A DNA stretch of 45,179 nt from Pirellulales bacterium. GTDB lineage: Bacteria > Planctomycetota > Planctomycetia > Pirellulales > Lacipirellulaceae. The stretch is from assembly GCA_022448345.1 (NCBI GenBank), contig JAKVCB010000017.1:1-45179 (forward strand), in the 5' to 3' direction. Each line of letters begins with the position of its first letter. Position 1 is the stretch's first letter. Below the pieces are notes generated by a model that had not been told where the DNA came from, did no database searches, and was given only the letters and a program-made list of their open reading frames with translations. A program made the translations under genes and the position numbers. Below are positions 1,408 through 30,129 of the stretch, in pieces.

Positions 1408-1569
1408 ACCTCGCAAACACCTAACAAGGGTGGTTGCAGGGACTTGTGTCCACTGTGTAAAATAAGGGACTCGGTTTACTTGTCTGGCTGGGCTGGTTAT
1501 TTGGCAAGGTCCATAGCAGCGAGCGACGCTGCCCCGCCAGTTAGCATGCCATCATCCAAGGAGTTTAAT

Positions 1570-1659
1570 TTGGGCACGAAGAAATCTGGCAAGGGTCGGC
1601 GGAAACTCGGCCGCAAAAAGCGGCGTATGCGTTCCAAAATCCGCCACCGCAAAAAATAG
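1570..1659 (+). CDS. 29-aa very basic microprotein, bS22/mS38 (AURKAIP1/COX24)-like
   Basis: A TTG at 1570 is preceded by AAGGAG (1558-1563) with 6 nt spacing, a near-ideal ribosome-binding site. The product has 29 residues, of which about 18 are Lys or Arg; its core reads GRRKLGRKKRRMRSK and it ends IRHRKK. This resembles the tiny ribosomal protein bS22 of actinobacteria and the C-terminus of mitochondrial mS38 (AURKAIP1/COX24), which lie on the small subunit. The frame is open further upstream (to 1444), but that part has no basic or conserved character and the SD argues for the short form. The similarity is by eye, so the ribosomal role is inference; the alternative is a nucleic-acid-binding peptide of unknown role. 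Confidence 0.6.
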   Translation: MGTKKSGKGRRKLGRKKRRMRSKIRHRKK

Positions 1660-2854: not shown

Positions 2855-5191
2855 TTAATCCGAACCTATCCCAGGTGATGAGCCATCAGAAACCGGGGTT
2901 TCTCCCATGGTTCTTTGCAGTTGCTTTCGGACACGGTCGGCCGCCTGATGCAATCGCGACTCAGGTTCGGCCCCACGGTACATGACATCTTGAGCTGCAC
3001 CCACTACTTCCCGGTAAAAGAAAGGCGCGACAGGCAATGCGGGCGTTGGCAGTTGCTTGTCGCTACCAGCAAGTTTCACAAACGTGTCCATCAGCGGCAC
3101 CCGTTTCAAATACGCCTGATAAAGAGGCTGATCGACCACACTTTGGCTGACTGGAATCCACCCACCCGCTGCACAAGCCCGGGCAGCCTCGGCCTCGTTA
3201 CCTCCAAAACCACTCCAGAATTTCATAAATTCCCACGCACCGTCTGGATTGTGCGCACCGCGGGGAACCACGAAGAAATTGCCATTCACCCAACCTGCCT
3301 GGTGGCAACCTCCTGGAGGAGGTGGCAAAGGGACGACACCATACTCGTCGATCAGCCGACCATTGGACGCAGCCAGTTGTCGGGCCTCAAAAATGTCACG
3401 GACGCGCCATTGGCCATCCATGATGACCGCATAGCGACGGTTAGCGAGCAACGGAAACAGAGTACCGGTCAGTGCCTGATCACCCGATCGGAATGCGGTA
3501 ACGCGCCCGGTACCGTAATGGTCTCTGTAACTGGCCATCCACTCCAAGGCTCGCAGGATTGCCGGCTGGTCGGCGGTAATGGTGGCCTCCGGGTGAGAAG
3601 CTGTCAAATTGGCGAACTTGCCACCAAACACCGGCCCCCAAGCCCAGAGACGTCGCGGGTCGGGCAAATAGCCAACCTGGTCAAGTCGCTGCGATTTCTG
3701 GGGCGGAGCAATGGTCACTGCAATCGCGTCAAGGTCAGCCAGCGTCCCGGGAGGCGACAATCCGTATTCTTCCAAGAGGGTTTTGTTGTAGTACAAGGCG
3801 CGAATATCGAGACCGTTTGGCATTGCGTAAAGGCAACCTTGATAACTGGCCAACCGAAGGGCTGCAGGAAATAGCCAACTTCGCAGTTCGACAAGCTCCT
3901 CGGGAGTCGCCAAATCTGCAAGCGGCAGTAGCGCGCCGCGGTGGGCCCAATCGGCGACAATCGGATCATCCTGGTTCACCAAGTCAGGGGGATCCCCACC
4001 AGCCACGCTCAAAAAGAACTTGAGGTCGAGGTTATTTCCCGGCATCGCAATTGGACGAACGAAATAGTGCGGTTGACTGGCATTGAATTGGTCTACGATC
4101 TGCTGCACAACCGGACGGTCACGACCGCCCCAAAAGTGCCAGAAAATGACCTCGGACCGGTCGTCTTCAGTTTGCGGGGGTGCGCAGCCCAGCACACTGA
4201 TCAGCAGTCCGATAACAGCAGCCCTGCGACCTACGCCCTGGTAATGCACCCAATGGTGTGCGGACCGGAACAAGCCTAGCGTCACCAGCAAAACCAGAAT
4301 GAACAAGATCCAAGCCATTGCCGATGCATATCCGATATCGAGATCGCGGAAGGCGGCCAAAAACATGTAAAGCGAAAGAAGCAGGGTCGACCCGGCCGGG
4401 TCCCCCTGTCCGTCGCTTACCAAGTAAACCTGGGTAAATGCCTGGGTAGCCTGGATTGTTCCCAGCACGAGATTAAAGAATATCACTGGTGTCAGCAGGG
4501 GAAGCGTAACATGGAAAAATCGGCGCAAGGGACCAGCACCGTCGAGCCGAGCTGCCTCGTAAAGTGTCGTGGGAATATCCCCCAACGCGGCAAGATAGAT
4601 GATCATAAAATTGCCAACTCCCCACAAACTCATCAGTACGAGTCCGTCTTTCGAACCGAATATCTGGACCGGATCGCTGCCAATCCAGGACGGAGGCCAA
4701 AAGGCTTCGCTGGTACTCTGAAACCACGCCTGTGGCGGCAAGCCCATCCAATCGCTGAGCAAATGGTTAAGAATGCCGTGTGCCGGATCGAGAATCCACA
4801 TCCACAAAATAGCGGCTGCCACCACTGGCACGACCGACGGCAAAAACAGCAGAGTCCTGTAAATGGCAATCCCGCGGACCTTGCAGGAGAGTATCACAGC
4901 CAGCCCAACGCCCAGTGCAATCGAAAGTGGAACACTCACAAGCACGTAGTAAGCCGTGTTCCAAAGTGCCAACCCGAATGGCCCACCTTGCCACAAATCA
5001 TGAGCCAGCCTGCTATAATTTTCGCCGCCAACCCACTGCGGAGCCGAAAGTAAATCGTAGCGGCAAAAACTCCAGTAGAGGGAAGCCAGAAACGGATAAA
5101 CCGTCAGTAGCGCAAAGCCGATCAGCCAGGGGCCGATAAAAGGAAGGGCCGAAAACACTCTGCGGGTGGAAGAAGGTTTCGTCAATCGCAC
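2855..5191 (-). CDS. Fused ABC sugar permease (MalF type) and solute-binding lipoprotein
   Basis: 778 residues in one uninterrupted frame. Residues 1-318 form a complete MalF-type permease: TM1 near 15-38, the EAA loop at 212-231 (YEAARLDGAGPLRRFFHVTL), last TM about 290-308, and a HHWVHYQG end typical of free MalF proteins. Immediately after comes GRR, a short hydrophobic run and a lipobox-like LGC (Cys336), which looks like a lipoprotein signal peptide, and then a family 1 extracellular solute-binding domain (about 345-778, starting EVIFWHFWGG). Topology fits: six TMs leave the C-terminus inside, and the seventh hydrophobic segment would carry the binding domain out. A GTG codon at 4249 (Val315) could be an internal start for a separate lipoprotein, but has no clear SD. 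The GTG start at 5191 is the first start after an in-frame stop. Confidence 0.85.
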   Translation of the reverse strand: MRLTKPSSTRRVFSALPFIGPWLIGFALLTVYPFLASLYWSFCRYDLLSAPQWVGGENYSRLAHDLWQGGPFGLALWNTAYYVLVSVPLSIALGVGLAVILSCKVRGIAIYRTLLFLPSVVPVVAAAILWMWILDPAHGILNHLLSDWMGLPPQAWFQSTSEAFWPPSWIGSDPVQIFGSKDGLVLMSLWGVGNFMIIYLAALGDIPTTLYEAARLDGAGPLRRFFHVTLPLLTPVIFFNLVLGTIQATQAFTQVYLVSDGQGDPAGSTLLLSLYMFLAAFRDLDIGYASAMAWILFILVLLVTLGLFRSAHHWVHYQGVGRRAAVIGLLISVLGCAPPQTEDDRSEVIFWHFWGGRDRPVVQQIVDQFNASQPHYFVRPIAMPGNNLDLKFFLSVAGGDPPDLVNQDDPIVADWAHRGALLPLADLATPEELVELRSWLFPAALRLASYQGCLYAMPNGLDIRALYYNKTLLEEYGLSPPGTLADLDAIAVTIAPPQKSQRLDQVGYLPDPRRLWAWGPVFGGKFANLTASHPEATITADQPAILRALEWMASYRDHYGTGRVTAFRSGDQALTGTLFPLLANRRYAVIMDGQWRVRDIFEARQLAASNGRLIDEYGVVPLPPPPGGCHQAGWVNGNFFVVPRGAHNPDGAWEFMKFWSGFGGNEAEAARACAAGGWIPVSQSVVDQPLYQAYLKRVPLMDTFVKLAGSDKQLPTPALPVAPFFYREVVGAAQDVMYRGAEPESRLHQAADRVRKQLQRTMGETPVSDGSSPGIGSD

Positions 5192-5324: not shown

Positions 5325-7520
5325 TTGGTTATGGAGGCTATCACCCCCAAATCAGCTCGTTTTCCCTTCGCTGCCCATCGCGATGATGCCGGTGTACCAC
5401 ACATCACGGCATCGTCCTGGCAAGAGGCAATCTACGCACTTGGCTATATGCATGCTACCGATCGCCCCACACAGCTCTATTTTGCCCGTGCTGTTGCAAG
5501 CGGACAGGCTACAGAACGGATTGCTGACAAGCCAGAACTTCTGGAAATGGACTTGTTCTTGCGGCGGGCTGGGCTCGAACGTCATCTAAAAAATGAAGTT
5601 GCCCTGTTACCGGATGACCTGCTGCAACAACTCCAATGGTATAGCGATGGAGTTAATGATGGTTTCCTGGACGCCGGCCGTACACTTCCGATGTGGGCCA
5701 CTGGTTTTCAGCCACTCCCCTGGGATCCCAATGCGGTACTGCTGATTGGTAACCTGCTGAGTTTTGCTGGACTCTCGGTCACCGAACAAACCAACAAACG
5801 CGAACTGCTGGAACTCATCCAACTCGGAATAAGTGATGAGAGGCTTCGAGAACTATTTCACCCTTACCTCGATGGCATCGACCTGGCTCATCTACGAAAA
5901 ATCAACAACACAAAACGGCTCTCCGACGATGCGCTGGAACTGCTGGCAGATCTACCACGCCTGGCAGGAAGTAACGCCTGGGCAGTTAGCGGAGCACGAA
6001 GTGCCACCGGGCACGCCCTACTGGCCGGTGACCCTCACCTGGAAGTCAATCGGCTGCCCGCCATTTGGTATGAGATTGTACTGAAGTGGGATGATGGCCA
6101 GTATGCGATGGGGGCAACGCTGCCAGGTTGTCCACTTATGGCTGTCGGACGTACACCCAAGCTCGCCTGGAGTGTGACTTACCTGCATGCAAACACCAGC
6201 GACTTTTTCATCGAAGACTGTCGCCCTGGTGGATCCACAGGATGGCAATATCGACGAGGAAGTGACTGGCACGATTTTGAACGTCGACAGGAACTCGTGC
6301 GGCGTAAAGGAAGTAAAGACGTTGTACTTGATGTGCTTGAAAACGAAGTCGGTACACTCACACGGACACCCGACGAAGATACACCCGGCATGTACCTTTC
6401 ATCGGCCTGGATAGGTGGACAGGTCGGTGGTGGTCGTGCCATTGGAAACTGGTTACAAGTTATCCATTCTCAAAGTGTGTTGGAAGCGATGCAGTCGGTG
6501 CGGCCCTGCCCACACCCTGCCCTCGTATGGGTCTTTGCCGACAGCGAAGATCACATTGGAAGCCAGGCCAACGGCTGGTTACCTGTGCGGGGTGCTGACC
6601 AGTCGGGGATCGTACCGATCCCTGCCTGGGATGAAAAAAATCACTGGCAAGGAACCGTTCCAGAGGAACTGTTGCCTCACGAATATGATCCTGCAATCGG
6701 TTTCGTGGCAACCGCAAATGAAGAGCTTTATCGAACAGATGGACCACCACTTCACGCACATGGTTTTCCCGACTACCGCAAAAGGCGAATCGTGGAACGG
6801 CTGACGGAACTTCCTCAAGCCACCGTCAAAGACATGCAAGAATTGCAATACGACGTATTGAGTATGCAAGCCCGAGATTTACTTCCCATTTTCCTCGCCC
6901 ACGTTGAGGAGGGGCCATTCAAAGAGACACTCGCCAACTGGGACTACCGCTACGATACCGATTGTACCGAAGCAGCCCTATTTCAGAATTTTTACCACCA
7001 GGTACTGTTAGAAATTTTTGGCCACGAAGAGGGTATTGGGTGGCGACGAATGCTCTATCTCTGTACCCGCATGGGCTATTCTACTCTGGTTCTCTGTGCC
7101 GCTGACCGACTGCTGCGCAAGGTAACCTCTTCGTGGTGGAAAGCCCGAGACAAAGGAGAAATGATTCGCCAGGCTGCTAAACGCGTTGAGAACCGGCCTC
7201 CCCAAACCTGGTCGTCGATCAATTGGTTTCACTTTGCCAATCGCTTCTTTTCAGCCGGAAGCGTCGGACGCTTACTCGGTTTGCGATCCCGGGCAATCCC
7301 CATGCGAGGCTGCCACGCAACCATATTTCAGGGACACCTGCTCACGACGGCAACCCGCGAATCGACGTTTGCTCCCAGCTACCATATGGTTACCGAACTG
7401 GGCACGGACCAGGCATGGACGAATCTTCCCGGGGGACCAAGTGAAAATCGCTTCTCGAAGTGGTACAACACGGATATTCCCCTTTGGCTCAATGCCGAAT
7501 ATAAAGAACTCGCATCATGA
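5325..7520 (+). CDS. Penicillin acylase family protein (Ntn hydrolase), no signal peptide seen
   Basis: 731 residues. Members are made as precursors that self-cleave before a Ser, which becomes the N-terminal nucleophile and hydrolyses amides such as beta-lactam side chains, N-acyl-homoserine lactones or other N-acyl compounds. Seen here: an A-chain with GVPHITASS and YALGYMHATDR, the cleavage site AGSNAWAVSG with nucleophile Ser216, the AGDPHL block (about 235-239), and TANEE with Asn465 as the likely oxyanion Asn. The start is TTG 5325 or ATG 5331; an in-frame stop (5283-5285) with no other start codon before TTG 5325 rules out a hidden signal peptide upstream. Most relatives are exported, so a cytoplasmic form is unusual. 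It is divergent from the ABC importer (133 nt) and 62 nt upstream of a PLP decarboxylase, which suggests import, deacylation and decarboxylation of an acylated amino acid (inference). Confidence 0.85.
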   Translation: MVMEAITPKSARFPFAAHRDDAGVPHITASSWQEAIYALGYMHATDRPTQLYFARAVASGQATERIADKPELLEMDLFLRRAGLERHLKNEVALLPDDLLQQLQWYSDGVNDGFLDAGRTLPMWATGFQPLPWDPNAVLLIGNLLSFAGLSVTEQTNKRELLELIQLGISDERLRELFHPYLDGIDLAHLRKINNTKRLSDDALELLADLPRLAGSNAWAVSGARSATGHALLAGDPHLEVNRLPAIWYEIVLKWDDGQYAMGATLPGCPLMAVGRTPKLAWSVTYLHANTSDFFIEDCRPGGSTGWQYRRGSDWHDFERRQELVRRKGSKDVVLDVLENEVGTLTRTPDEDTPGMYLSSAWIGGQVGGGRAIGNWLQVIHSQSVLEAMQSVRPCPHPALVWVFADSEDHIGSQANGWLPVRGADQSGIVPIPAWDEKNHWQGTVPEELLPHEYDPAIGFVATANEELYRTDGPPLHAHGFPDYRKRRIVERLTELPQATVKDMQELQYDVLSMQARDLLPIFLAHVEEGPFKETLANWDYRYDTDCTEAALFQNFYHQVLLEIFGHEEGIGWRRMLYLCTRMGYSTLVLCAADRLLRKVTSSWWKARDKGEMIRQAAKRVENRPPQTWSSINWFHFANRFFSAGSVGRLLGLRSRAIPMRGCHATIFQGHLLTTATRESTFAPSYHMVTELGTDQAWTNLPGGPSENRFSKWYNTDIPLWLNAEYKELAS

Positions 7521-30042: not shown

Positions 30043-30115
30043 GCGGGTGTAGCTCAGTTGGCAGAGCACAACGTTGCCAACGTTGTTGTCGTGGGTTCGA
30101 ATCCCATCACCCGCT
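30043..30115 (+). tRNA. tRNA-Gly (anticodon GCC)
   Basis: 73 nt fold completely: acceptor GCGGGTG/CACCCGC, D-stem GCTC/GAGC, anticodon stem CAACG/CGTTG with loop TTGCCAA (anticodon GCC), T-arm GTGGG-TTCGAAT-CCCAT, discriminator T. CCA is not encoded. It is followed by an intrinsic terminator and then tig. Confidence 0.97.
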
Positions 30116-30129
30116 CTTGAATAGAATGA

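Follow-up and report, generated by a model that had tools for sequence, protein, structure and literature searches.

A conserved 29-codon gene of planctomycetes encodes a basic microprotein and candidate ribosomal protein

Introduction

bS22 is the 30S protein with an AURKAIP1/COX24 domain (PF08213, NF047430) of actinobacteria, Bacteroidota and Borrelia. The known ribosome-bound proteins of the size and charge considered here are bS22, mS38, eL41, bL37, and bTHX. Borrelia bS22 was unannotated, begins with GUG and is 61% basic, and its pocket is formed by h2, h27, h44, and h45, from which it touches 23S rRNA (PMC10618245). PMC10085706 puts bS22 and eL41 at 55–65% basic residues. eL41 and mS38 occupy the same place as bS22, as described in PMC7005279, PMC10085706, and PMC6582356. 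Our literature search found no work linking planctomycetes with bS22 or with unannotated small ribosomal proteins, and no planctomycete ribosome structure, as judged by title.

Here, we analysed a window of 45,179 nucleotides from a Pirellulales bacterium, this being the whole stretch of DNA under study. The original prediction had placed in it a 29-residue basic microprotein, as a candidate homologue of bS22 and mS38.

Results

The gene and its translation signal were located as follows.

1558..1563, + strand: Shine-Dalgarno (SD) sequence AAGGAG, 6 nt ahead of the start codon (spacer TTTAAT); read from the sequence
1570..1659, + strand: 29-codon gene with the product MGTKKSGKGRRKLGRKKRRMRSKIRHRKK, start codon TTG at 1570-1572 and stop codon TAG at 1657-1659; based on the sequence and on homologues

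Reading of the sequence confirmed the predicted AAGGAG six nucleotides before TTG and the 29-residue product. The peptide contains 9 Lys, 8 Arg, 1 His, and 0 acidic residues; its strongly basic character stands as predicted, and the exact figure of over 60 percent Lys/Arg was slightly too high (17/29 = 58.6%). Among the 1610 short ORFs of the whole window (20–60 aa; ATG, GTG, or TTG starts; both strands), AAGGAG at -16..-4 occurs before this ORF alone, whose Lys/Arg fraction is also the largest of all. The frame is open farther upstream, yielding 71 aa when counted from the TTG at 1444. Some homologues (e.g., L002) carry a stop codon directly 5' of the 29-aa start; therefore, the longer form was rejected and the 29-aa form was taken as the conserved one. 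A promoter scan found no promoter-like site 5' of the gene. Reverse-strand ORFs overlap it.

The gene is flanked on one side by a gene for a squalene-cyclase-like protein and on the other by a convergent gene for an ABC permease. The neighbourhood differs among homologues: even the most frequent neighbour cluster was present at no more than 16 of 217 loci, and the clusters, read by eye, showed no linkage to ribosomal-protein genes. Further along the window, a separate permease at 2011-2835 adjoins a single ORF at 2855-5191 (- strand), in which an ABC sugar-type permease (PF00528, residues 91-305) is fused to an extracellular solute-binding protein (PF01547, residues 362-659). A penicillin amidase family protein (PF01804, E = 1.8e-136) is encoded at 5325-7517 (+ strand), and tRNA-Gly(gcc) at 30043-30116 (+ strand) is the sole RNA family match in the window.

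MGTKKSGKGRRKLGRKKRRMRSKIRHRKK matched 38 of 39 close relatives at E <= 1 (own genome counted), 37 of them at 2e-7 or better. Across the class, which appears to be Planctomycetia to judge from names like Pirellula, Gemmataceae, and Rhodopirellula, a homologue was found in 285 of 297 genomes at E <= 0.01, nearly always in single copy; for the good-quality genomes, the count was 253 of 260. Seven of the 12 genomes that gave no match belong to the good-quality set; 11 are at most 97% complete, and G316 is 99% complete. A profile was used to repeat the search on nine genomes that had lacked a strong match (G001 from the close-relative set; G408, G029, G316, G341, G355, G374, G446, and G498 from the class set). 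No convincing match emerged from these nine, G001 giving a weak one only, and some of the absences may be real.

To describe the constraint on the sequence, we used 180 class homologues, selected with a search motif in which 11 of 20 positions are set. Invariance at those 11 positions is therefore to some extent built in, which does not apply to synonymous variation or to the five Lys/Arg positions that the motif leaves free. Pairwise differences in sampled pairs were distributed over codon positions 1/2/3 as 7201/2681/34998 (third position, 34,998 of 44,880). Four of the free positions were nearly uniform (K175/R5, R178/K2, R179/K1, and R178/K2), and the sole tolerant site had K133/R47. Since Lys and Arg are seldom swapped, specific RNA contacts fit better than bulk charge. 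Across 18 chosen diverse members, the Gly, Ile, and His positions were fixed. An SD 4-mer at -18..-4 preceded 157 of the 180 homologues, as compared with 10% at random positions. The 29-aa coding sequence is under strong purifying selection, and the ORF is a real gene. The predicted microprotein gene, conserved in planctomycetes, easily missed and with a non-ATG start, is thus borne out, and both the peptide and its SD are conserved in relatives.

Start codons at the conserved place were GTG in 87, ATG in 78, and TTG in 15 of the 180 homologues; a slightly different start rule gave 85/80/15. The choice varied by lineage. GTG or TTG was present in 15 of the 15 first-listed relatives of the same order (L001–L015), and ATG in 9 of the 10 listed next (L016–L025), which mostly belong to another order. 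The lineage-specific start codons could reflect tuned or autoregulated translation.

The family extends into a second planctomycete class. In 199 genomes drawn evenly from the phylum, there were 31 matches to MGTKKSGKGRRKLGRKKRRMRSKIRHRKK, of which the 12 strong ones all came from its own class. The 19 matches outside the class had E values of 0.09 or worse, and two of them (L029 and L043) were homologues on reading. The diverged forms MAKPRRRRKIGSKKRRARWKVRHKIS and MPKPRRRRKVGSKKRRARWKVRNKK emerged from such reading of weak matches. Profile A6, which includes these forms, detected the diverged form starting with MAKPRRRRKVGSKKRRARWKVRHK... in 45 of 150 genomes of the second class at E <= 1e-4 and in 48 at E <= 0.05. 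Applied to the 199 phylum genomes, A6 gave 16 matches at E <= 1.4e-8, four of them outside its own class. The forms of the two classes are alike far beyond composition (z = 7.2) and have the core RRK[LIV]Gx[KR]KR in common. This core is also seen in members with poorer scores, for example MRKKHRGRRKLGQKKRRARKKRRQKK (E about 0.02). An SD was present at -18..-4 in 30 of 31 second-class homologues, as compared with 7% at random positions. A pattern scan of named genomes returned at least 120 stretches; 115 of the 120 matches listed hold the core motif, and, among the matches listed, 79 of the 80 titles read by eye name planctomycetes, with one saying only 'Bacterium'. Hand-chosen representatives make up A2 (13 sequences), A3 (18), A6 (8), A7 (16), and A8 (17).

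No Pfam or NCBIfam model gave a match. MGTKKSGKGRRKLGRKKRRMRSKIRHRKK matched neither PF08213 nor NF047430, and bS22 of the Flavobacterium and Borrelia type also misses both models. Searching 39 relative genomes with PF08213 gave 0 matches over the cut-off, and the 29-codon gene was not reported. PDB sequences yielded nothing at E <= 10, in a phmmer search with the peptide as well as in profile searches, and Pfam gave no match of MGTKKSGKGRRKLGRKKRRMRSKIRHRKK to PF05162 (eL41). bTHX (PF17070/TIGR04560) was rejected, as MGTKKSGKGRRKLGRKKRRMRSKIRHRKK did not match while the Thermus THX control did; with the bTHX model, none of 29 relatives had a match over the cut-off, and the 29-codon gene was absent among the matches listed. 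bL38 was also rejected: PMC10618245 describes it as a strand-containing large-subunit protein that extends at least to R52 in Borrelia.

Similarity to the known small proteins was assessed with composition-preserving shuffles; the comparisons were many, the p values are uncorrected, and the best single values were picked out of this large number. The gapped test has power, because it recognised the bS22 subtypes as related to each other (z = 6.1) and eukaryotic as related to archaeal eL41 (z = 4.7). The class peptide gave p values from 0.004 (Flavobacterium, the best of many) to 0.52 against single bS22 sequences. In a fixed start-to-start register, the own class gave p = 0.026 with planctomycete bS22, 0.043 with the Bacteroidota/Borrelia type, and 0.011 with eL41 (bS22 range 0.02–0.12). 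Over nine registers, these values became 0.30, 0.34, and 0.027, respectively (bS22 range 0.2–0.4). The gapped test of the whole family gave p = 0.057 for bS22 of the Bacteroidota/Borrelia/MPCG type, 0.19 for the PF08213 type, and 0.28 for eL41. The second-class form gave p = 0.022 against MPCG-type bS22; eL41 gave 0.011–0.13 against the own class and 0.73 against the second class alone. For bL37 (MAKRGRKKRDRK..., sequence verified), p was 0.038 with the own class and 0.30 with the second. bTHX gave 0.34 in the single comparison and 0.67 with the whole family, and mS38 about 0.6, against a human segment. The hhalign comparison of the class-family profile with a bS22 profile returned a probability of 2.3%. 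Similarity to bS22 or eL41 thus appears hardly above composition (most p 0.02–0.3). Membership in the bS22/mS38 family, as originally proposed, was not established: there was no PF08213 or NF047430 match, the hhalign probability was low, and the shuffles were mostly non-significant.

Canonical bS22 was detected in 0 of the 297 class genomes at E <= 0.01 (profile A8; no positive genome was among those searched). With profile A2, which largely overlaps A8, it was found in 16 of the 199 phylum genomes at the same threshold. These 16 share no genome with the 12 of the own class or with the 16 that gave strong A6 matches; this non-overlap of bS22 and A6 (16 and 16 of 199) is not significant alone. 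The distribution fits replacement or divergence, but most phylum genomes outside the class show neither bS22 nor the 29-aa family, and one clade counts as one event. The canonical tiny bS22 of other planctomycete lineages is of two types, MGSxIKKRRKKM... and MPCGRKRR... (L246, L077, L080, L081, and L247–L254). Some of these genes apparently start with a codon other than ATG, and two MPCG-type copies have an extra AIGHKGG tail.

Discussion

The 29-aa family is a new conserved microprotein family whose function is probably ribosomal. A ribosomal role is our best guess because of the analogies with bS22, mS38, eL41, bL37, and bTHX; coding capacity, conservation, and translation signals are observed, and from there we infer ribosome binding. 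The site of bS22 is the leading candidate for its location. On this basis, we tentatively propose a constitutive, stoichiometric small-subunit protein in the h44 pocket, which would stabilise the decoding region and form a bridge to the large subunit. The stand-alone gene would encode a constitutive planctomycete ribosomal microprotein, whose 29 residues would form a mostly helical rod in an rRNA pocket. This pocket would most likely be the small-subunit cavity of h27/h44/h45, held by bS22, mS38, and eL41 in other lineages. The Lys/Arg side chains may grip the upper end of h44 close to the decoding centre and extend to 23S rRNA, making an inter-subunit bridge. In a class that has no recognisable canonical bS22, the peptide would fill this site as a lineage-specific occupant, having either arisen by convergence or diverged from bS22 so far that the relationship can no longer be recognised.

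With the above results in hand, we weighed other explanations. We give appreciable weight, short of preference, to the reading that the RRK[LIV]Gx[KR]KR microproteins are an undescribed Planctomycetota-specific ribosomal family, unrelated to bS22 and eL41, which evolved independently for the h44 pocket or for a site that is empty in every solved bacterial ribosome. Somewhat less likely than the h44 pocket is that the protein binds the ribosome at another site, such as the large subunit, where the 24-residue bL37 of actinobacteria is found, or a site unoccupied in solved ribosomes. The same conservation, size, and charge apply to such a placement, the bL37 similarity (p = 0.038 / 0.30) is as good as that to bS22, and none of the known families is a convincing fit. 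Against this placement, the peptide lacks the NHGKRPN tail of bL37.

A nucleic-acid-binding microprotein outside the ribosome, for example a nucleoid-compacting or RNA-chaperone peptide, would agree with the highly basic, acid-free composition, with a gene that stands alone without a conserved neighbour, and with the lack of a family match. We consider it improbable, given that most sites do not tolerate an exchange of Lys and Arg and that Gly, Ile, and His are fixed in the 18 members, unlike in charge-only DNA condensers. A functionless chance ORF or misread frame could be suspected from the 29 codons, the TTG start, and the missing promoter-like site. We give it a negligible chance: presence in 285 of 297 class genomes, the third-position variation (7201/2681/34998), and the conserved SD rule it out.

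The 29-codon gene is too small for routine annotation, and its product is a good candidate for a ribosomal protein not yet described. A gene with such class-wide conservation, which the Pfam and NCBIfam libraries nonetheless lack, probably belongs to the core machinery. Should the protein be ribosomal, the ribosomes of planctomycetes would contain a component missing from E. coli-based models, either close to the decoding centre or in another place. Such a protein would also provide one more example for the open question whether bS22, mS38, and eL41 have a common ancestor or were repeatedly invented for one rRNA pocket.

Compared with known systems, the peptide resembles bS22 in several respects. 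bS22 has 28–33 residues, about 60% Lys/Arg, and few acidic residues, and MGTKKSGKGRRKLGRKKRRMRSKIRHRKK lies within that range (29 residues, 58.6%). Both genes are easily missed by annotation, and a non-ATG start is also described for Borrelia bS22 in PMC10618245. Arg-His at residues 25-26 of MGTKKSGKGRRKLGRKKRRMRSKIRHRKK is at the same distance from the N-terminus in several bS22s. The 29-aa family differs in having the fixed RRK[LIV]Gx[KR]KR core instead of the KxHK region. eL41/eS32 of eukaryotes and archaea is similarly short (25–37 residues) and very basic, and 11 of 25 residues of the class peptide, counted by hand, are identical to fly eL41 in an ungapped start-to-start alignment, whereas adding the second class of planctomycetes removes the signal (p = 0.28). 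mS38 (AURKAIP1/Cox24) places a basic C-terminal segment at the ribosomal site of bS22, as stated in PMC6582356, but it is a much longer protein and shows no similarity to the peptide. bTHX (PF17070) is likewise basic, with 27 residues, but its model does not match the gene. bL37 of mycobacteria and Cutibacterium has 24 residues, is basic, and contains a GRKKR stretch; it differs from the 29-aa family by its NHGKRPN tail.
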